Positions 28,316-57,800 of a DNA stretch of 64,000 nt are shown piece by piece. A program made the translations under genes and the position numbers. This DNA is from Owenia fusiformis (taxonomy: Eukaryota; Annelida; Polychaeta; Sabellida; Oweniidae), in contig CAIIXF020000009.1 of assembly GCA_903813345.2 (NCBI GenBank), positions 20,671,759 through 20,735,758 of the forward strand, read 5' to 3'. The notes under the pieces were generated by a model. That model was not told where the DNA came from and made no database searches. It saw nothing but the letters and a program-made list of their open reading frames with translations. The stretch's first letter is position 1, and each line of letters opens with the position of its first letter.

Positions 28316-31300
28316 GTAAGATAATGCAATACTTTATGCATGCAATTAATCCACAATCTAGACTGTTTTTCTATTCTATAAATTGTTGAATGGCCTTACA
28401 ATAGAATTGGCAGCATTATATATCAGTGGCAGATTCAGGAACCAACAAGGGGGGCCCAAATTTCCGGTCTGGGAAAAAAAAATTTGAGCCCCTAAAACCG
28501 AAAAGTGGGCACAAATTTTGAGGCCCATTTTATTCAAAATTTGGCCTGAAATTAAAAAATAAGGCCTTAGAAGGCCTAGTAATGACCAAAAAGGCCCAGT
28601 TTTTGGGGCCCCCCGGATCTGCCGCTGTATATGCTACAGGTTTGTACATCAAAAGGCTAAATATGAGGGCAAAATGGTTTATAATATTGAAGCCTTTATG
28701 AACAGTCATTACTAAAAATAAAATACCTCAAACAAATACAGATCTTTCGAATTCAAGAACAGGCAACTGATCCAATATGAGTTTATTGGTAAATTAACTA
28801 AGAATTATGACAACTATAATGGAGTCTGGCTCCATACATATGGAAAAGATGCTTGTATGCCTAATCAGCATAATAGCTATATCCAGACATGATAGTAGTT
28901 GCTGAAGTAGTTGTACTTGTATGAGCTCCACTTTAATTATATGTAGCTACTTCATATCAAGCTACTGTAATAATAAAGTGGCCTTTATGAATTATACCCC
29001 CAAAACATACTTATCATGAACAGAATTCCATAGGTTTCATAAAATGATCATTTGAATACACGATCAATTAGACTACAATGTTAAAATAATGTTTTTGTGT
29101 TTTTGTTTTTGAAAACCATTACATCTATACATTCCCTCATCTAGATATTATACACATTCTTACTGAAGCAGAAACAATCTAAAGTATACTGCCTAAGAAT
29201 ACAGATTGCCCGTCCATTAGCAGCTTAAAGATTGTATTAAAGATGAACATGGTTATAAGCTACACATTATATGCAGATGTATACTAACATAAGAAGTTGT
29301 TTTTTTATTGCACCTGCAACACAACTTCCCGCGACTTTCAGTATGAGTGCAACTTTTATAAAGCAGTGCAACTTACCACAACTTCAACACTTCAGCTAGT
29401 TTTGATGTAAATATCTATCATAAATTCCTTGATAAGACCACTGAAAATCAGAAGCAAAAAATAAAGATTTCTTGTCTTGTGGAGAATTGGTTGTTTTATT
29501 TAGGTTTTACGACATGGCAGGTATCGATTTACATTATCAGGTAATATTGAAAAAAATCGCAAAGTAATCAACTTTCTGTCTATACACGTTACAATATTAC
29601 GTTACGTCATTACATCAACTATAAAGTAGTTTAATTTGATGGAAACTACACAACAGCAACGCCAAAGCGTAGCAAATCCCATCGAACAGCCATGGCTGGC
29701 ATTTTTACAAACAAAGTATATAGCAAAAATGGCAGCCATTTTTCAAAACAGCCACCTTCTACCAAAAGTGTCATTAGACAGTGTGCCATGCTTATAGTAT
29801 TCACATACCAAATATGAACAAAATCGCGCTCCACTACTTTTTCGAGTTATAGTAAAATACATTAATATGGTGGCCATTTTTCAAAATGGCCGCCTTCTAC
29901 CAAAAGTGTCATTAGACAGTGCAGTGTGCCATGCTTAGTTCACATACCAAATATGAACAAAATTGCTCCACTACTTTACGAGTTACAGCAAAAATCGTAA
30001 AATAACGAGTAAAGGTCGCAATTTTTCAAGATGGCTGCCATGTGCTTCTTTAATATCTACATTTCTAGCTTTATTAATGTCCTATATAATTTTTTACATT
30101 TAAAACATATTGCTATTACAGTTTTACATATTGCACCTAAATTACTGTAGAATCCGCACTAAAATGGGCACCATTTTTAAATGAACGACCATTTTGAAAA
30201 TCGCTTTGAAGCAGAACTTCTACCCCCATAGGGTGTATATGTACAAAATATTAACAAAATCGGGCCAACGGTATTTGAGTTATTGCCCAGACAGATGGAT
30301 GGACATACGGACATCTTGTCATATATACACTGCCCCACGGACGGACGAACGTATGTACGTACTGTACGTACTACATATGTATGGACGGATGCATGGAGGC
30401 GTTCCCTATATCCATCTGAACTTCGTTTGATGGGATAACAAAATAAAGGAATCAACAGTTCCCATGCCATCTTAAATGTGAAGGTGACGGCCGTAACCTT
30501 CACTTTATACTGACCAGTGATATTCAATGTACACTGTATCTGTATAATACTGATTTAATTTCTCACTTGAATTATTTAGCTGTCATTTCACATAGAGCAA
30601 ACAGAAATTGATGAAAAACGAATAGTAAGAGCAGTTACAATGATCCCTACCACCAACCACCGACCAGTCATTCTCCACAATTGGGTACACATGGTTGGCT
30701 GTCGATCTTTTACATAAAGATGAATAGATGAAAAATTAGAAGAAAATAAAATGAATCCAATGACCATCCAATGTACCTTTACAAAGTGATTGAAATGTGT
30801 AGCATCGTCGTGGTCTGTAATGTCATATTTTTTAAGTGACATCTCAATCGTTAAGACATTTTCCTCATACAGTGTTTTGAGGGTACCTGTGGAAAACACT
30901 GACTGGTTGGTGGGGTTGATCTGTTTTTTCGTAAACCCCTTACAGTTTATGTTGTGATTTCATTTAGTCAATAACTAACACTGCCATTTCTGAACTTATT
31001 CCTTGAAGGCGTAATACAGATTATTCACATATATTGTATGAATATTAATATGACGAATCAAGTGGAACATGATAGAATGTTTAACAAGCTAATTAACATA
31101 CACTATTTTTTTTACAGAATCACCTCCACAATATAATGAAGCCATACAACCACCTACCGGGGGCCCATATCAACCACAACCAGGTCAATACCAACCACTA
31201 CCTGCTCAATATCAACCACCACCTGAACAATACCAACCACCACCAGGCCAATACCAGCCACCACCGGGCCAATACCAGCCACCACCGGGCCAATACCAAC

Positions 31301-34300
31301 CACCATCAGGTCAGTATCAGCCGCCACCTGGAGGTATGGCTACAGCACAACCTACGCCATCTGTGCCTGTACAACAAACAACAGTGGTTATACAGAACCA
31401 GCAACTTCTGAACATACCAACACAGACAATATGTCAACACTGCAACAATTCTGTGGTTACACAAGTAGAGTATCAATCAGGGACCTGCACTTATATTGCC
31501 TGTATAGGACTGTGCCTCATAGGGTAAGTGCATACATGATTGTGTCATATATTGCCTGTATAGGACTGTGCCTCATAGGGTAAGTGCATACATGATTGTG
31601 TCATATATTGCCTTATACTGCCTGTATAGGACTGTGCCTCATAGGGTAAGTGCATACATGATTGTGTCATATATTGCCTTATATTGCCTGTATAGGACTG
31701 TGCCTCATAGGGTAAGTGCATACATGATTGTGTCATATATTGCCTTATACTGCCTGTATAGACTGTGCCTCATAGGGTAAGTGCATACATGATTGTGTCA
31801 TATATTGCCTTATACTGCCTGTATAGACTGTGCCTCATAGGGTAAGTGCATACATGATTGTGTCATATATTGCCTTATATTGCCTGTATAGGACTGTGCC
31901 TTATAGGGTAAGTGCATGTATGATTGTGTCATATATTGTCTTATATTGCCTGTATAGGACTGTGCCTTATAGGGTAAGTGCATACAAGATTGTGTCACAT
32001 ATTGCCATGTATTGCCTGTATATATAGGACTATGCCTCATAGGGTAACTGCATATATGATTGTGTCATATATTGCCTGTATGAGGACTGTGCCTCATAGG
32101 GTAGTTACACACATGATTGTGTCATATATTGCCATGTATTGCCTGTATGAGGACTGTGCCTCATAGGGTAAGTGCATATATGATTGTGTCATATATTGCT
32201 TGTATGAGGACTGTGTCTCATAGGGTAGTTGCACACATGATTGTGTCATATATTGCCATGTATTGCGTGTATATATAGGACTATGCCTCATAGGGTAACT
32301 GCATATATGATTGTGTCATATATTGCCTGTATGAGGACTATGCCTCATAGGGTAGTTACACACATGATTGTGTCATATATTACCATGTATTGCCTGTATA
32401 TATAGGACTATGCCTCATAGGGTAACTGCATATATGATTGTGTCATATATTGCCTGTATGAGGACTGTGCCTCATAGGGTAGTTACACACATGATTGTGT
32501 CATATATTGCCATGTATTGCCTGTATGAGGACTGTGCCTCATAGGGTAAGTGCATATATGATTGTGTCATATATTGCTTGTATGAGGACTGTGTCTCATA
32601 GGGTAGTTGCACACATGATTGTGTCATATATTGCCATGTATTGCCTGTATATAGGACTATGCCTCATAGGGTAACTGCATATATGATTGTGTCATATATT
32701 GCCTGTATGAGGACTGTGCCTCATAGGGTAGTTACACACACGATTGTGTCATATATTGCCATGTATTGCCTGTATATATAGGACTATGCCTCATAGGGTA
32801 ACTCCATATATGATTGTGTCATATATTGCCTGTATGAGGACTGTGCCTCATAGGGTAAGTGCATATATGATTGTGTCATATATTGTCTGTATGAGGACTG
32901 TGCCTCATAGGGTAGTTACACACATGATTGTGTCATATATTGCCATGTATTGCCTGTATATATAGGACTATGCCTCATAGGGTAACTCCATATATGATTG
33001 TGTCATATATTGCCTGTATGAGGACTGTGCCTCATAGTGTAAGTGCATATATGATTGTGTCATATATTGTCTGCATGAGGACTGTGCCTCATAGGGTAGT
33101 AACACACATGATTGTGTCATATATTGCCATGTATTGCCTGTATATATAGGACTATGCTTCATAGGGTAACTGCATATATGATTGTGTCATATGTTGCCTG
33201 TATGAGGACTGTGTCTCATAGGGTAGTTACACACATGATAGTGTCATATATTGCCTGTATGGGAGTGTGCCACATAGGGTAAGTGCATACCCAATTGTGT
33301 CATATATTGACTTATACTGCTTGTATATAGGAGCAGTAGAAGTACCCCATATGTTGCAGATAGGCAAGAAATAAGGTGAAATGTAAGTTTGTGTTGGTAT
33401 TCTCAATTGATAAACATATCAAACTTATCAAAAATATATATTTTATTATTGATTTTAAGCCTTCAGATAGGTGCAAAATTGAAATTTTCCACTATTTAAA
33501 ATCACAAGTTTTGTTTTTCCATGTTTCAGGTGTGCAACTGGTTTTTCTCAGCATATTTTGATTAAATCACATGTTTAGCATACCTGGTTGTTATCAGCAT
33601 TTGATTAAATGACATGTTTTTCATGTTTCAGGTGTGCAACTGGTTGTTCCCAGCATATATTGATTAAATCACATGTTGTGCATACCTGGTTGTTCTCAGC
33701 ATTTGATTAATTCACATGTTTTGCATGTTTTAGGCGTGCAGCTGGTTGTTCTCAGCATTTGATTAAATCACATGTTTTGCATGTTTTAGATATGCAGCTG
33801 GTTGTTAACAAGATATTTTTTATGAATGCACATGTTTTGCATTTTTCAGATGTAGTTGTTTCCAGGATATTTTTAAATGAAAGCACAAATTTTGCATGTT
33901 TCAGGTGTGCTGGTTGTTCCCAGTGTATTTTGAATTAAGTACATATTTTGCATGTTTGAGGTGTAGAGCTGGTTGTTCCCAGGGTCTTTTGATGAAAGAA
34001 TATGTTTCTTTGTATGTTTAGGTGTGCAGCTGGTTTAATGCCAATATATTTTGATTAAAGCACAAGTTTTTGCATGTTCTAAGTATGCAGCTGTTTGTTC
34101 CTAAGGTATTTCAATGAAAGCATACATTTTGCATTTTTTAGATGTGGAGCTGGTTGTTCCCAGGGTATTTTTACAAAAGCACATATCTTTGTATATTTTA
34201 GGTATTTTGATTAAAGTACATGTTTTAGGTGTGGAGCTGGTTGTTCCAGGGTATTTTTTATGAAAGCGCACATTTTAGGTATGGAGCTGGTTGTTCCAAG

Positions 34301-35941
34301 GGTATTTTTACTAAAGCACATGTTTTTGCATATTTTAGGTGTGGAGCTGGTTGTTCCAGGGTATTTTTATGAAAGCACATGTTTTGGATGTTTTAGGTGT
34401 GGAGCTGGTTGTTCCAGGGTATTTTTATGAAAGCACATGTTTTGGATGTTTTAGGTGTGGAGCTGGTTGTTCCAGGGTATTTTTATGAAAGCACATGTTT
34501 TGGATGTTTTAGGTGAGGAGCTGGTTGTTCCAGGGTATTTTTATGAAAGCACATGTTTTGGATGTTTTAGGTGTGGAGCTGATTGTTCCAGGGTATTTTT
34601 ATGAAAGCACATGTTTTGGATGTTTTAGGTGTGGAGCTGGTTGTTCCAGGGTATTTTTATGAAAGCACATGTTTTGGATGTTTTAGGTGTGGAGCTGGTT
34701 GTTCCAGGGTATTTTTATGAAAGCACATGTATTGGATGTTTTAGGTGAGGAGCTGGTTGTTCCAGGGTATTTTTATGAAAGCACATGTTTTGGATGTTTT
34801 AGGTGTGGAGCTGATTGTTCCAGGGTATTTTTATGAAAGCACATGTTTTGGATGTTTTAGGTGTGGAGCTGGTTGTTCCAGGGTATTTTTATGAAAGCAC
34901 ATGTTTTGGATGTTTTAGGTGTGGAGCTGGTTGTTCCAGGGTATTTTTTATGAAAGCACATGTTTTGTATGTTTTAGGTGTGGAGCTGATTGTTCCAGGG
35001 TATTTTTATGAAAGCACATGTTTTGGATGTTTTAGGTGTGGAGCTGGTTGTTCCAGGGTATTTTTATGAAAGCACATGTTTTGGATGTCTTAGGTGTGGA
35101 GCTGGTTGTTCCAGGGTATTTTTTATGAAAGCACATGTTTTGTATGTTTTAGGTGTGGAGCTGGTTGTTCCAGGGTATTTTTATGAAAGCACATGTTTTG
35201 GATGTTTTAGGTGTGGAGCTGGTTGTTCCAGGGTATTTTTATGAAAGCACATGTTTTGGATGTTTTAAGTGTGGAGCTGGTTGTTCCAGGGTATTTTTTA
35301 TGAAAGCACATATTTTGGATGTTTTAGGTGTGGAGCTGGTTGTTCCAGGGTATTTTTATGAAAGCACATATTTTGGATGTTTTAGGTGTGGAGCTGGTTG
35401 TTCCAGGGTATTTTTATGAAAGCACATGTTTTGTATGTTTTAGGTGTGGAGCTGGTTGTTCCAGGGTATTTTTATGAAAGCACATGTTTTGGATGTTTTA
35501 GGTGTGGAGCTGGTTGTTCCAGGGTATTTTTATGAAAGCACATGTTTTGGATGTTTTAGGTGTGGAGCTGGTTGTTCCAGGGTATTTTTTATGAAAGCAC
35601 ATATTTTGGATGTTTTAGGTGTGGAGCTGGTTGTTCCAGGGTATTTTTATGAAAGCACATATTTTGGATGTTTTAGGTGTGGAGCTGGTTGTTCCAGGGT
35701 ATTTTTTATGAAAGCACATATTTTGGATGTTTTAGGTGTGTGGCTGGTTATTCCCAGTGCATTTTGATTTTTGCATATGTTAGGTGTGTAGCTGTTGTTC
35801 CAAAAATATTATTATGAAAACATATTCTTCAGGTGTGGAGCTGGGTGTTGTCTGATTCCATTTTGCATGGATGGCTGTAAAGATGTACTCCACACGTGCC
35901 CACAATGCCACCAGATTATAGGTCAGAAATCTGGCTGTTAG
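28246..35941 (+). CDS. LITAF-domain (LPS-induced TNF-alpha factor-like) protein
   Basis: LITAF-domain proteins sit on the cytosolic face of late endosomes and lysosomes. They bind zinc through a split CxxC...HxCPxC site, insert a hydrophobic helix in the membrane, and recruit NEDD4-type ligases and ESCRT through PPxY-type motifs. Proposed exons: 28246-28315 (candidate), 31118-31523 and 35833-35941, totalling 585 nt (194 residues). Exon 2 carries PPQY, eight 7-residue QYQPPPG-type repeats, CQHC and the hydrophobic '[11 protein letters not shown]'. Exon 3 gives [17 protein letters not shown] then VLHTCPQCH and stop TAG. Exons 2 and 3 join in phase (GG|G). The 4.3-kb intron between them is filled by two splice-junction arrays. 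The first exon is the least certain part. Confidence 0.85.
28424..28630. mobile_element. Inverted-repeat element with CAGTGGCAGATTC ends (hAT-like MITE)
   Basis: The left end 'cagtggcagattcaggaacc' and the right end 'ggatctgccgctg' are imperfect inverted repeats of the CAG(T/C)GGC(A/G)GATCC type seen in hAT-derived MITEs. The interior is rich in 'ggccc' blocks. Non-coding. Confidence 0.6.
29690..30010. repeat. Direct duplication of about 170-185 bp with 'aaatggc(a/g)gccatttttca'
   Basis: The segment with 'cttctaccaaaagtgtcatt' and 'cataccaaatatgaacaaaa' occurs twice, near 29752 and 29891. Each copy is preceded by a 'tggcxgccatttt' palindrome like that of the 350-bp repeat at 15472. Confidence 0.7.
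30170..30440. repeat. Dispersed repeat with 'gacggacgaacg' tract and 'gaacttcgtttgatgggata' end
   Basis: Starts 'aaaatgggcaccatttt' and ends 'ccctatatccatctgaactt' plus 'cgtttgatgggataa'. Related ends occur at about 37021-37080 and 40580-40675. ORFs on both strands here are by-products. Confidence 0.65.
31118..31523 (+). CDS. LITAF N-half exon with proline-rich repeats
   Basis: Acceptor 'tttttttacag' and donor GTAAGT. In frame: [15 protein letters not shown], then eight copies of a heptad of the QYQPPPG type from about 31160 to 31330 (21-bp DNA repeat), then [15 protein letters not shown] and the hydrophobic segment. CQHC is the first half of the zinc site. The last 40-50 bases and the donor are the founder of the array that follows. 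Confidence 0.9.
31524..33330 (+). repeat. Tandem array of exon-end/donor junctions (about 28 copies)
   Basis: Units of about 57-70 bp, each containing 'gactgtgcctcatagggta' (the last bases of exon 31118-31523 and its donor) followed by 'gtgcata...atgattgtgtcatatattgcc'. The first unit is the exon end itself. The first seven or so copies keep a strong GTAAGTG. Later ones alternate among GTAAGTG, GTAACTG and GTAGTTA. Short ORFs on both strands within it are repeat by-products. Confidence 0.93.
33500..35832 (+). repeat. Tandem array of acceptor/exon-start junctions (58-bp unit, about 38-40 copies)
   Basis: The unit is 'ttttaggtgtggagctggtt' followed by 'gttccagggtatttttatga' and 'aagcacatgttttggatg'. 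The TTTTAG|GTGTGGAGCTGG part equals the acceptor and start of exon 35833-35941. Copies from about 33500 to 34320 are degenerate. From 34320 to 35745 they are nearly identical at exactly 58 bp. The last two before the real exon are degenerate again. Because 58 is not a multiple of 3 and the unit lacks stops in most frames, 80-110-codon ORFs appear by chance. Confidence 0.95.
35833..35941 (+). CDS. LITAF C-half terminal exon
   Basis: Acceptor 'attcttcag'. After a codon-completing G it reads [17 protein letters not shown] then [18 protein letters not shown] and stop TAG. It contains the second zinc half (HTCPQC). Its length of 109 nt equals the exon at 45786-45894. The first bases 'GTGTGGAGCTGG' are those multiplied in the upstream array. 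Confidence 0.93.
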
Positions 35942-51800: not shown

Positions 51801-54800
51801 TAGCAGACAGACATGAAGTCAAAGCAACACAAAATGTTGAAACTCTCTCAGAACATCACATTTTAGAGCTATTTTGAGACTAGAATATAATGAATAAGAT
51901 TATTCCATCAGATGGATAACAATAGAGAATATTTTTACTTACCCAACTATACATAGGAGAGCGCAGAGCAGCCATGTGAATGTTCCAGTCTCATGGCGAA
52001 CTGAAGTCACAATATCAGCCTGGCAGAATGGACACTTTGTCTGTACAGGGCTCTCTCTGAATGACTGTACTATTGTAGTGTGCATGGCTGGCTGCTGGGT
52101 GACAACAACCGTCTGGGGTCCAGCTGGGGGTGGGGGTCCATACATAGCTTGGGGTGGGGGTGCTCCATAAGCAGGTGGGGGTCCCGCTAGAATATTTATG
52201 TCGAAATTATTATGACCATTTTATTAGATTATATTCTAGACATTTGATATACAATTAACAATTTGATGTGGAATTTCAGAAGTGTGCCATGTCTGACAAC
52301 AATGAAGTTGATACTCTTTGTTTACAGTGACGCAGAATCTGAAAGCAAATATGCTTTAAAGCAGAAAATTTAAAACACTGCTGTTTCCTGGCTGTTTCCA
52401 TGCAGGACACTTTCCGTTTTCAGACATGCATGTAGAACCTGATCACATCAGGAGAATCATATCTCTGATGAATGCAACTAAGTTGTGGTCACCATCTATA
52501 TACCATGAAAGCTTAGTAAGGGTTATATGGAGGTCACCTTTTGCTTAATATCAATTTGCATGAAGTCTATAGAAGAGATTTTATGTCAAATGTGACGTCA
52601 TGGTCCTCAACCAGCCGTACTTTAAGGGTTAAAATCATTAATTTTTGTTGTTGTAATTGCTTAATTGAGATGAACAATAAAGTCTTTATTCTTCTCCTAT
52701 GTTTACAGTTTTATTCCTCAATATATTATCGTTACAATGTGTTTTCTTAACAAGCCTATCTGAAATTTTGTCACATGAATGAGAAGTATTTTCTTAACCT
52801 AAAATAATAGTTGTCTATTTACTCTATATATACCAGCAGTAAGTATTTAATATTTCATTTCAGCACTGGATTTGTGCTAATTCAGCAAATTCAGTAGAGG
52901 TAGTGCAGAATATTTGCACCCTTAAATCTATTCTTATTTCAATGCAGAGTGGATGAAGAATTTAATTAGATATTATTTACAATTTATTACATGATGTACA
53001 GTGAATTAAAACCAATGTTGAAACTATATACAAACTATTACATACAGTAAATCAAAATAGCTGAAACATATGGATATCTAATGATAAACTACCCATTACT
53101 ATGAAAAGAAGTGCATTATTAAAAAGTGAACTGTAAACATCAATCCTAACTAATACCTGTACATTGATCCAAATGAGCACTGAAAAACTGAATGAGGTAG
53201 TATTTTGCAAAACTGAATCAATATATTTTCTAACTCTGTGATTTTCAGAATGATGTGGATATATGTATTAATGCTGAGATCTAATGCTGTTTAATGTTCC
53301 AATGATTCTCAAAATGATGGTCCATTGATTAATTATACCAACGTGTAATGCTGTATAATGTTTATGTGATTCTTAAAATGATGGTCCATTGATGCATTAC
53401 GCCATAATATAATGCTGTATAATGTTCCTGTGATCCTCAAAATGATGGTCCATTGATGCATTATGCCACAGTATCAATTTTGTACAATGTTGCTGTGTTC
53501 TTAAATGATGGTCCATTAATGCTTTTTGCCAAAATATAATGCTGTATAATGTTCATGTTGTGACACATGTGGTTTAACCAATCCTGCTGTAGCGGGCAAT
53601 CTGGTTTTCACAGTTAGGGCAGTCATGTATACAATCCTTGAACTGGGGCAGAATGAATGGGATGAGGAAAAGGCCGAAAAAGCCAATTCTGCAAATACAT
53701 AAAAAATACTATATATATATTTGAGAAATATCAGCTAGTAATACTTTAGAATTAGTGTCCAGGACATGAAGAGTTTAAATGTAGAGTCAAAATAATAATG
53801 AATCAACATCACAAAATTGTAGAATGGCTAGTTTCAAAGTCACGGTCAAAATAGAAAATAATTAACTCACAGAGAGGTCAAAGGGTCACGGTAAAATTCC
53901 ATGGGGACTACTGGACTATACTAATGGCCAAACTTTGATCTTTGTAAATGCATATATTTGACTAAGAGTAAGGGTTCAACTTACATATATTTCATTTTCA
54001 AGACCTATCTACAAATAAATACAATGTATTATGACTTACATCATTATAAGAAGCAGTGCACAAACACAGAAAGCATAGGTTCCGGCCTCTAGAGTTGTAG
54101 TCGTCCAAATCTCTTCTTTGCAGTGAGGGCATATTGTTTTAACTGGTGTTTGCTTGAACTCATTGTACACTGTCACTTGCTTAGCTTCTGCTGGCTGCTG
54201 CTGGACCACGACTGTAGTAGGGGCAGGTTGTTGTGGGGGTAATGCTAAAGGAAAACTTGCTTGTCACTCCAAAATGTACTTATTTATGTGAAGTTCTGTA
54301 CAGGGTATTCAATAATCATGGGATGGAATCGGAAGATTTGTCCAATATGGAGGATTCATAAAAGAGAATATGTATAGGATATCCAATGATTTTGAGAGAT
54401 ATCATTTCTATCCACGAGTTGATATCAATATTTAGACGAGTGAGCGTAGAGAATGAGTGCAGATATTGATATCAACGAGTGGATTAAAATGATATCACGA
54501 AATTGCATGGAGTGAGTACAACAAAATATCGAAGTTAAATAATAAATTGTGGGGTTCTCTTTGTATTTTGATGAAAATTAAAAAATGAATTCCTCAAAGC
54601 AGGCATAACCTCCAATCCCAACAGTAATAATGCACCATTTAAAGATTTCCTGAGACCCCAACATAGGAAGGGGTGGGGATAACTGACAAAAGGAAAATTA
54701 ACCCAACCATTAACCCATTTCCTCAGTATGGATGAAGTATCAAAATCCCAACCACTGGGACAATGCTATTCCTGACCCTCCTTACATGGGAGGGGTCTCA

Positions 54801-57800
54801 AGTAAACCTTTGAATAGTGTAATGCTGATTTTTGCTGATTTTGCTCACAATCATCTCTTGTCATGTTACTTTATTCTTTTAAGCAAAATAAAGTCAAGCG
54901 AATGTTCCTTATTTTCTAAAAAGTTCATTCAGTCAATAGGACAAAATAGTGATACCTCAACATCTAGAATTAATATAATTGTATTGTATGATTTATGACA
55001 AAAATAAAAAACCTTAACCTAATAAATATATGATAAAAACATCTTGCATATGTCTTTTCAAAAGGTAACTTATTAACTTCTTTGGATTATAACACAAGGA
55101 TTTATAGGCCCTTTGATAAATGTATACATATTTATATATAAGTCTTCTCATTTAATATTTTCAGTGTGAACAAAAATCATAACATTTTATATACACTGTA
55201 CTGACATTACTAAAACATACTAAAATTCAATTCTTTTTGAATCCAAGTCATAAACCACACTATTGTATTCTACTAGAGTTAAGAAAATCACGATGTAACT
55301 TGGATTCATTTGGCACCTGTTTTAGCTTAATGAATTTATATAATTTACATCTTGCAAAAATTTAAGATGAATACCCCAATTGTGTTTTTTTGTACTTTAT
55401 GTTTAAATTATATTTATCGTAAAAACTACAAGCTGCCTCCAAGTTGGGAAACATTAAAGGATCATATCACTGAATTGACAGCCCCTATTGAAATTGATAA
55501 CAATAAAAAAAAAAACTTATTCTTGTGAGCATTGTCAACACAAAAAAAAACATGGTCTGATTCTGGAAAATTGAAATTAAACTGAGTCCAAATCTGCCAA
55601 ATCAAATAGCTGTCAAATGTCAGAAATCTTAAAATTTCCCTAATAGTGCCAAATTAACCCAAGTTATAGTATTAAAGAAAACTGTTAGAAAAAAACAACA
55701 GCTGTTTGATTACTAATAAAAAGAAAACTTACTGATGTTAAAAAGAATAGAGGTTGAAAATCTTTAGACAGCACGAGAACAGCCGATTCTGTCATTGTTC
55801 CACTTCCAGGTTGCCATACAATGGCATACATCTTTATTTGGCAAAATGTATGTTTTCTGTGATTGGTCTGGTTGTCCTCATGATGCGATGTTATCTTAGT
55901 TATTTTTTCTACCTCTATCACTTGAATTACTTAACTGCTCCTCCTTTTTGATGATGGAAGACATCCATGGTTTTTGTAAGTGCATTATTATTGATTTCTA
56001 GTAGTGGCTTTTGTGAATATAATAGGGCTTGGGCTATCAATGATAGTAATGTTGGCACCAGGTCCCTTCTTTGTCAAATAAAAATACATGTTGATGCCAA
56101 GTCCTTTCTTGGTCAAATGAATGGTCATGTTGATATCAAATCACTGCTCTGCCTTGTTAAATAAAGAGTCATGTTGACACAAAGTCCCTACTTTGTCAAA
56201 TAAAGAATCGTGTTGACACCAAGTCTCTGCTTTGTCAAATAAAGAGTAATGTTGATACCAAGTCTCTGCTTTGTCAAATAAAGAGTAATGTTGATACCAA
56301 GTCTCTGCTTTGTCAAATAAAGAGTAATGTTGATACCAAGTCTCTGCTTTGTCAAATAAAGAGTAATGTTGACACCAAGTCTCTGCTTTGTCAAATAAAG
56401 AGTAATGTTGATACCAAGTCTCTGCTTTGTCAAATAAAGAGTCGTGTTTGTACCAATTGCTGAATAAAGATACATGTTGATGCCAAGTCCTTTCTTGGTC
56501 GAATGAAGGGTCTTGTTGACACCAAATCACTGCTCTGCTTCGTTAAGTCCATGTCTTATCAAATAAAGATTCATATTGACACCAAGTCTCTTCTTTGTCA
56601 AATAAAGGGTCGTGTTAATACCATTTGCTGAATAAAGATACATGTTGATGCTAAGTCCTTGATTGGTCAAATAAAGAGTCATGTTGATACCAATTCAGTA
56701 CCTTTGCTCAATAAAGAGTCATGTTGACAGCAAGTCCCGGCTTTGTCAAATAAAGAGTCTTATTATACACCAAGTTCCTGTTTTGCCAAATAAAGACTCA
56801 TGTTGCCACCAAGTCCTCTTTTGGTCAAACAAGTTATGTTGATACAAAGTCACAGCTTTGTCAAATAAAGTCATGTTGATATCAAATCTCTGCTTTGTCA
56901 AATAAAGTCATGTTGATACCAAATCTCTGCTTTGTCAAATAGAGAGCCATGTTGATACAAAGTCCTTGTCTTGAAAAATAAATAGTCATGTTAACATGTT
57001 GATACCAAATCTCTGCTTTGTCAAAAAATAGAGAGCCATGTTGATACAAAGTCCTTGTCTTGTCAAATAAAGAGTCATGTTAACATGTTGATACCAAATC
57101 TCTGCTTTGTCAAATAGAGAGCCATGTTGATACAAAGTCCTTGTCTTGTCAAATAAAGAGCCGTGTTAACATGTTGATACCAAATCTCTGCTTTGTCAAA
57201 TAAAGAGCCATGTTGATACAAAGCCCCTTTCTTGTCAAATAAAGAAGTCATGGTAACACCAAGTCTCTGTCTATCGAACAAAGAGTCATGTTAGCAAGTC
57301 CCCGCTTTGTTTTGTCAAATAAAGAGTCTTGTTGACATCAAGTCTCTGGTTTGTCAAAAAAGAGTATTGTGGATGCATTTATGTTATCACACATATTATG
57401 ATGTTAAAACAGCATAAAAGAGTTTTGTTATTTGATGATTTTCTATAATTGAATTTCCTGAAAGTGAAAGTATATGTTAAAGAGAGTAAACACAAGAATA
57501 CAACTCAAAGGCAATAAAAGACAATAATGTTACTTAATACCATGGGAAACATGATATGTTTTGCTAACTAAAGGGATACATGACCTAATCATCATCATCA
57601 AATACAGAATATATTATGCTGAAGAGTATGTATATCACTAGCTGAGTATAAACATCATTTTCACATAATAACGCGATACTTAAATATTATTGTTTATAAA
57701 TCAAATTATCACCAACCTATTGGGTTGGTTTCAAATTCAGACTTGATTCAAACACGATTCAAAAAGAACAGCCCGGTAGATCAAAAAGTGAGAAGATATG

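Follow-up and report, generated by a model that had tools for sequence, protein, structure and literature searches.

How can an intron be removed correctly when both of its ends are repeated dozens of times inside it? This question is raised by a stretch of 64,000 nucleotides from the genome of the annelid Owenia fusiformis (contig CAIIXF020000009.1, positions 20,671,759 to 20,735,758 of the forward strand). The whole stretch is called the window here, and positions are counted from its first letter unless a contig (C1, C2 and so on) is named. A LITAF-like gene on the plus strand of the window is host to two tandem arrays, one of the donor junction and one of the acceptor junction, both lying in a single intron of 4,309 bp (31524-35832). 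The splicing machinery apparently must pick the true junction of this gene among dozens of look-alikes. The intron is probably a double-ended "mirage", as junction-spanning repeats have been called in amphioxus, made of neutral minisatellites which are tolerated as the outermost junctions stay in use.

Structure of the LITAF-like gene and its junction arrays

The upstream coding exon (31118-31523, plus strand) has an open frame up to its end, where the real donor junction reads ...CTCATAGG|GTAAGTG. Its last ~26-32 nt represent the exon-derived part of the donor unit. The real terminal coding exon (35833-35941, plus strand) is immediately preceded by the real acceptor ...TTCTTCAG, which is of the CAG type, and codes for 35 residues with a stop at 35939-35941. 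This exon matches PF10601 above the cut-off (C9:20707583-20707687). When the outermost sites are joined, the product of the real exon pair has 170 residues and matches PF10601 (zf-LITAF-like) over the full domain, with E=2.8e-24 and profile positions 3-69 of 70 aligned. A first-pass annotation of the window had proposed a plus-strand LITAF gene with both real exons intact, and the domain match on the spliced product together with the open frame bears this out.

The donor-junction array (31524-33309, plus strand) consists of the real donor followed by 28 decoys, with the last exon-like base of the decoys running from 31579 to 33278. A scan with a 26-nt core allowing <=9 mismatches found the real donor and 28 copies placed 56-70 bp apart, and a second scan under a different rule also found 28. 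The estimate of about 28 copies directly downstream of the exon was therefore reproduced by both scans, and Tandem Repeats Finder (TRF) also reported an array with a 127-bp unit at 31937-33260. The first step between copies is 56 bp, the following ones are 65-66 bp, and from there on steps of 57 bp and of 67-70 bp take turns for the most part. The copies closest to the exon hardly differ from each other; the deeper ones are organized in a ~127-bp higher-order repeat. The basic unit is ~57 bp, with 26 nt derived from the exon in the second scan and ~32 nt as aligned. GT is present in 28/28 decoy donors, as GTAAGT in 12, GTAACT in 7 and GTAG in 9.

The two arrays are separated by ~200 bp of intron (33310-33511, plus strand) with no long array, where the sole TRF entry is a short repeat of 9 bp (33412-33437). 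The acceptor side follows on the same strand. It is composed of an older degenerate part (33512-34219, from the core scan and TRF), a young block (34220-35754) of ~96% identical 58-bp units reading TTTTAG|GTGTGGAGCTGGTTGTTCC..., and a last part (35736-35832) with two divergent copies (35736 and 35784) and then the real acceptor. Scanning with a 25-nt core and <=10 mismatches gave 38 copies (33530-35784) besides the real one, and a second scan under a different rule gave 37, so that the roughly 40 copies proposed earlier become ~38. TRF reported a 58-bp period with 35.1 copies at 33702-35767, the same period with 25.4 copies and 96% identity at 34273-35754, and a period of 175 at 34220-35754. 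The 5' part of the array (33530 to ~34200) is old and irregular. Each unit of 58 bp contains 18 nt of exon-derived sequence. The 58-bp block had been placed directly upstream of the terminal exon; the block itself is present, but the two divergent copies intervene. AG is found in 34/38 decoy acceptors, and 31 of those 34 have TAG and two have CAG.

Both arrays together occupy 4,107 of the 4,309 bp (~95% of the intron), in agreement with the description of nearly the whole intron as decoy donors followed by decoy acceptors. The tandem repeat analysis proposed with the first-pass annotation was run with TRF and recovered both arrays independently of the core scans. Chance or a simple repeat as origin of the arrays is excluded by the copy structure seen in TRF and in the core scans. 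A dispersed repeat, a transposon or an introner is also excluded, as a genome-wide DNA search with each unit, which skips very common words, matched this locus only. The LITAF acceptor copies showed an age gradient with distance from the exon (rho 0.49, p=0.002). No general gradient away from the exon was found across 15 arrays of this genome (one undefined), and one of them, L031, showed the opposite trend (rho -0.65, p=0.007).

LITAF paralogs without arrays

Further LITAF-domain places were found in the window (five) and on C6 (seven). The intron is kept at the matching position of the zinc domain in LITAF paralogs of the window and of C6. TRF found no array inside the introns of two LITAF paralogs of the window, and none was seen by eye in the introns of two paralogs on C6; these four introns are ~350-540 bp each (by eye). 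Comparison with these four introns suggests that the arrays are most likely an addition to the pre-existing, old intron of one LITAF paralog.

Some other repeats were observed around the paralogs. The window contains minisatellites near LITAF paralogs at 53282-53558 and 56045-57374, with units of 64 bp and of 39 bp, the latter arranged in higher-order repeats. In the LITAF cluster at C6:26252260-26253600, the exon for the second half is present in two copies and a short tandem repeat is situated just after the first stop (by eye).

Junction arrays at other genes

The genome in which similar arrays were sought amounts to 498 Mb and has 12 contigs of 31.9-62.2 Mb; 12 smaller contigs that were sampled are <0.7 Mb each. 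An acceptor pattern (TTTCAGGT three times, with gaps of 30-60) matched 478 times genome-wide, vs 72 times for the reversed word used as control. Among the matches listed (C1, C2 and C3 to 24.93 Mb), 19 acceptor loci were distinguished, and the control word gave 6 loci over these same contigs. In the 54,950 bases of the window outside the arrays, the acceptor word was not commoner than the control (0 vs 2). A donor pattern (AGGTAAGT three times) gave 594 matches vs 328 raw matches for its control, a smaller excess than that of the acceptor word. Another pattern, TTTTCAG three times (1608 vs 310), was contaminated by a dispersed repeat and was not used as a count.

The edges of the arrays were recognized by eye as coding exons at 12 of the 19 acceptor loci and 7 of the 8 donor loci among the matches listed, with L009 counted on three pattern copies only. 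Pfam support at E<=0.01 was obtained for 8 of 11 acceptor pieces, representing VWA, UDG, 7tm_3, Sec3 C-terminal, SSF, HMA, C2H2 zinc finger and CRAL-TRIO families (several under the family cut-off), and for 5 of 7 donor pieces, representing Muted, NIF, Cys-loop receptor, UGDH N-domain and MRPL52. No Pfam match at this threshold was found for the pieces of L019, L021 and L025 on the acceptor side or L026 and L028 on the donor side, and L028 also had no PDB match. The gene names of L017 and L025 are provisional; L025 is presumably an alanyl-tRNA synthetase, with no PDB or Pfam match and an NCBIfam alaS match at E=0.082 only. Taken together, the arrays recur at introns of several gene families and of UGDH in this genome.

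Some donor arrays are very long. An MRPL52-like exon (L033+L066, C3:3277000-3287000) is followed by ~74 donor units of 59 bp covering 4.4 kb; the family search for MRPL52 missed even this known exon, and no inference on copy number is drawn from it. L028 possesses ~43 donor units of 67 bp.

A few loci showed special forms of the repeat. In L026 (C1:440000-444500), a tetraspanin-like exon has a donor unit of 54 bp and the exon start is duplicated too, and a coding repeat could grow there. In L029 (C1:45655300-45659500), which has a NIF-phosphatase-like exon, the unit is nearly all exon-derived (51/52 nt), and the decoy GTAAGT seems, by eye, to result from GT coming to lie next to the exon sequence AAGTG. 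The CRAL-TRIO gene (L023+L069, C3:21345000-21354600) has an acceptor array with units of 37-39 bp before one exon and a second acceptor-like array with units of 79 bp downstream of that exon, probably before the next exon (by eye). On the plus strand at C1:20247310-20247610, a tandem unit of ~49 bp (TTTTCAG|...GATCAG|GTAGGC) contains one site resembling an acceptor and one resembling a donor, possibly representing an array of mini-exons.

UGDH as another case of a double-ended intron

The UGDH gene (L032+L065, C2:33701500-33709200) shows an acceptor array, an exon, a donor array and an acceptor array in succession. Arrays are thus present at three successive splice sites and one intron is double-ended. 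The exon, which ends in ...YGLGK, is preceded by 6 decoy acceptors in units of 130 bp and followed by 12 decoy donors, of which 9 have GT. Three decoy acceptors stand before the exon that comes next (GRAADLKHLESCARR...). A family search with the UGDH N-domain found one place in the genome with four exons in order, a search in which copies elsewhere may have been missed. An in-frame stop would follow from use of any of the nine GT-bearing decoy donors or of 8/9 decoy acceptors; the remaining acceptor shifts the frame.

Seven donor-array introns were extended by 4-4.5 kb, and an acceptor array tied to the next exon was found only in UGDH. At seven acceptor-array loci extended 4 kb upstream no donor array was recognized. 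The neighbouring exon was identified in few of the extended loci, so that the count of double-ended introns gives no rate.

Effect of decoy sites and signs of selection

Joining any of the 28 LITAF decoy donors to the real acceptor gives a product of 135 residues instead of 170, with loss of the real C-terminus. The 34 AG-bearing decoy acceptors lead to products of 135-203 residues, and the real C-terminus is retained in none. The prediction that an array acceptor adds 11 residues and a stop holds for acceptor copies of the typical sequence, and the predicted loss of the second zinc half agrees with the decoy products. Over 19 arrays of this genome (L009 and L019 left out), use of the decoys would break the frame in 338 of 355 cases, the exception being the tetraspanin-like L026, where 17/17 decoys keep the frame open.

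Splice dinucleotides are mostly kept in the decoys, with AG in 174/195 acceptors (12 arrays) and GT in 183/191 donors (8 arrays), fractions which are biased upward because all arrays except LITAF were chosen for matches to splice words. The divergence of exon-derived and intron-derived parts was compared in 11 of 20 arrays, as nine failed the size rules (too short or too few copies); copies of >45% divergence were dropped. The exon part was less divergent in 6 arrays and more divergent in 5 (Wilcoxon p=0.83). With exon and intron parts diverging alike in these arrays, the splice-site copies look like passengers of the repeats.

The pairing energy with U1 was -11.1 kcal/mol for the real LITAF donor. 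Eleven decoys are equal to it and the other 17 range from -5.9 to -8.1 kcal/mol. Because these eleven decoys pair equally well, donor strength does not explain the choice of site. The outer sites may be favoured by exon definition, by early commitment to whichever donor is transcribed first, or by enhancers in the exon that follows the real acceptor. Base pairing between the two LITAF arrays gave no signal, tested with one 400-nt piece of each (-167.5 vs a shuffled mean of -162.0, sd 8.0). Looping out of the intron by pairing of one array with the other is thereby unsupported.

Origin and tolerance of the arrays

Duplication within an exon usually damages the protein. A duplication spanning a junction would be tolerated because the extra copy falls inside the intron if the outermost site is still spliced, and in consequence no special targeting to junctions would be needed. 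Of the two LITAF minisatellites, one would have begun as a tandem duplication spanning the exon|intron boundary, the other as one spanning the intron|exon boundary, and each array may then have been grown and homogenized by slippage or unequal exchange. The outermost donor (31523) would be joined to the outermost acceptor (35833), while some use of decoys would give aberrant by-products. The outermost sites are most likely the ones in use, to judge from the frame-breaking decoys, the intact genes that were retained and the reverse transcription polymerase chain reaction (RT-PCR) published for amphioxus.

Several observations weigh against this explanation. The eleven decoy donors match the real LITAF donor in U1 pairing, the use of the outermost sites is inferred from sequence, and the LITAF gene is one of a paralog cluster, so that it could be partly non-functional. 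The excess of the donor word over its control is modest. Among the matches listed, no exon was recognizable at 7/19 acceptor and 1/8 donor loci, and L019, L021 and L028 were taken as exons without family support. A blind test, in which Pfam was run on six-frame fragments of >=34 residues from either edge of each array (four of the control entries and one of the test entries being covered in part), was also weak, with a match at 12/27 junction-word loci vs 1/10 control-word loci (one-sided p=0.054). The tetraspanin match of L026 among the 12 is marginal (E=0.0099), and L008 and L009 were missed though their exon pieces had given Pfam support. The weak separation is partly due to the sole positive control locus, L079 (C3:16287950-16289700, minus strand), which was found by a word without splicing meaning and is itself a donor-junction array at a DnaJ C-terminal domain.

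The arrays might instead represent a functional decoy system, in which they compete for U1 and 3' splice-site factors and the number of copies determines how much full-length LITAF is made relative to isoforms without the second zinc half. In its favor, the sites are largely intact, eleven decoy donors have the same U1 pairing energy as the real donor, the decoy products are altered in length and devoid of the real C-terminus (135 vs 170 residues from decoy donors, 135-203 from decoy acceptors), and two downstream repeat units serve as donors in human IFI6, according to the passages cited (PMC4526556). We consider such a system rather unlikely, since conservation of the decoys is not higher in the exon parts than in the intron parts in the 11 arrays compared, sister LITAF genes are devoid of arrays and the arrays occur in unrelated gene families. 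A decaying paralog, in which the arrays have wrecked LITAF splicing and mainly aberrant products are made, would fit the many competing donors of equal strength, and its loss might be tolerated, as the LITAF domain occurs at five other places of the window and at seven of C6. However, the frame is open in both exons, the zf-LITAF-like domain is full at E=2.8e-24, and the same kind of array is present in UGDH, found once in the genome, all of which makes decay of this gene quite improbable.

AG|GT junctions inside introns can act in recursive splicing. The first-pass annotation had suggested that the intron may be removed by exon-definition choice or stepwise, or may give many isoforms; in stepwise removal the copies would act as successive ratchet points. 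Most LITAF acceptor copies do have AG|GT, and copies of the AG|GTAA type occur in L020 and L010. The regenerated donor is mostly weak, though, being TAG|GTGTGGAG in 22/38 copies with -5.5 kcal/mol vs -11.1 for the real donor; the best one, GTGAGGAG, reaches -10.0 kcal/mol in two copies. The combination of a strong acceptor with a strong regenerated donor, which defines a recursive splice site, was not found in the LITAF array, and because of the mostly weak regenerated donor, stepwise removal is disfavored and very improbable for this intron. An assembly artefact, produced by a collapsed or stuttered repeat, deserves consideration as such long arrays pose difficulties for assembly, but we give it hardly any credence: the copies differ by substitutions and show higher-order patterns, the 64-kb window contains no N, and unrelated arrays are found at many loci. 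A double-ended pair of neutral minisatellites is accordingly preferred among these explanations.

This reading can be widened. Junction-spanning minisatellites may be distributed genome-wide at many exons, sometimes at both ends of an intron and reaching ~74 units for one of the donors; the spliceosome may pick the exon-outermost site by position, through exon definition or first-come commitment, and not by local sequence, and the copy number of decoys may set the basal level of aberrant isoforms. This wider proposal is tentative and somewhat doubtful. If true, the genome would offer a ready-made collection of natural cases from which the rules of splice-site choice could be measured.

Significance

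Competition between identical splice sites has been studied mostly with few engineered duplicates. Here dozens of natural copies are present on one or both sides of introns in several genes, including UGDH, which was found once and has frame-breaking decoys. If the use of the outermost sites is true, splice-site selection based on position would be directly measurable. The arrays also illustrate a cheap way in which introns become longer and new splice sites arise, and they place mirages in a lineage without earlier report in the literature searched.

Comparison with known junction-spanning repeats

Mirages of amphioxus are minisatellite-like tandem duplications across the exon-intron boundary, described in the globin genes BflGb6 and BflGb9, Adh3, troponin C and PGBD5 (PMC3087553, PMC3902484). 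According to the passages cited, AG and GT are kept in many of the repeats, clusters are homogenized with the boundary units left out, RT-PCR suggests regular splicing, and the unit numbers are 3-6 in BflGb6 and 2-7 or 3-6 in PGBD5 (PMC3087553, PMC3902484). Like these, the LITAF unit spans the junction, the real junction is at the array edge, the exon is intact, and GT (28/28) and AG (34/38) are kept. Unlike them, a single LITAF intron has 28 copies in one array and ~38 in the other, a double-ended intron being unmentioned in the cited passages on amphioxus. The range of mirages has so far been cephalochordate, whereas the host of the LITAF arrays is a spiralian, the annelid Owenia fusiformis. 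A Hox gene of this genome reads ...MKWKKDNNIEKLTGP, with the KLTGP tail that is the spiralian Lox5 signature, and two neighbours have tails like those of Lox2 and Lox4. An amphioxus host was rejected on these Hox signatures and on the chromosome number (12 chromosome-size contigs). A search for the GFP family gave no match, a weak test as control genomes gave none either, and a search for COX1 was also negative.

In human IFI6 (6-16), two downstream units of a donor minisatellite act as donors in alternative transcripts, as described in the passages cited (PMC4526556). Tandem repeats supply multiple splice donors there as in LITAF, but the LITAF intron has an acceptor array as well, while the cited description of IFI6 concerns the donor side only. 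Variable repeats at human exon-intron boundaries may form novel introns, according to the cited passages (PMC2812944, PMC3087553). As in intron gain by tandem duplication, splice signals are multiplied by duplication in LITAF; unlike it, the intron was already there, at a position conserved in the family, and became longer, so that no new intron arose. Recursive splice sites are resembled in the AG|GT copies inside the LITAF intron and differ in that the regenerated donors here are mostly weak. An earthworm metallothionein paper describes intronic tandem repeats which, in the part available, are not placed across splice junctions.

The literature search returned no mirages by that name outside amphioxus and no intron arrayed at both ends. 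The first-pass annotation knew of no described intron of this type, a statement which does not hold as it stands: the amphioxus mirages and the IFI6 minisatellite are of the same kind, and UGDH provides a second double-ended intron in this genome. The kind is already known; within the literature searched, what is new is that both ends are arrayed, the lineage of the host and the scale.

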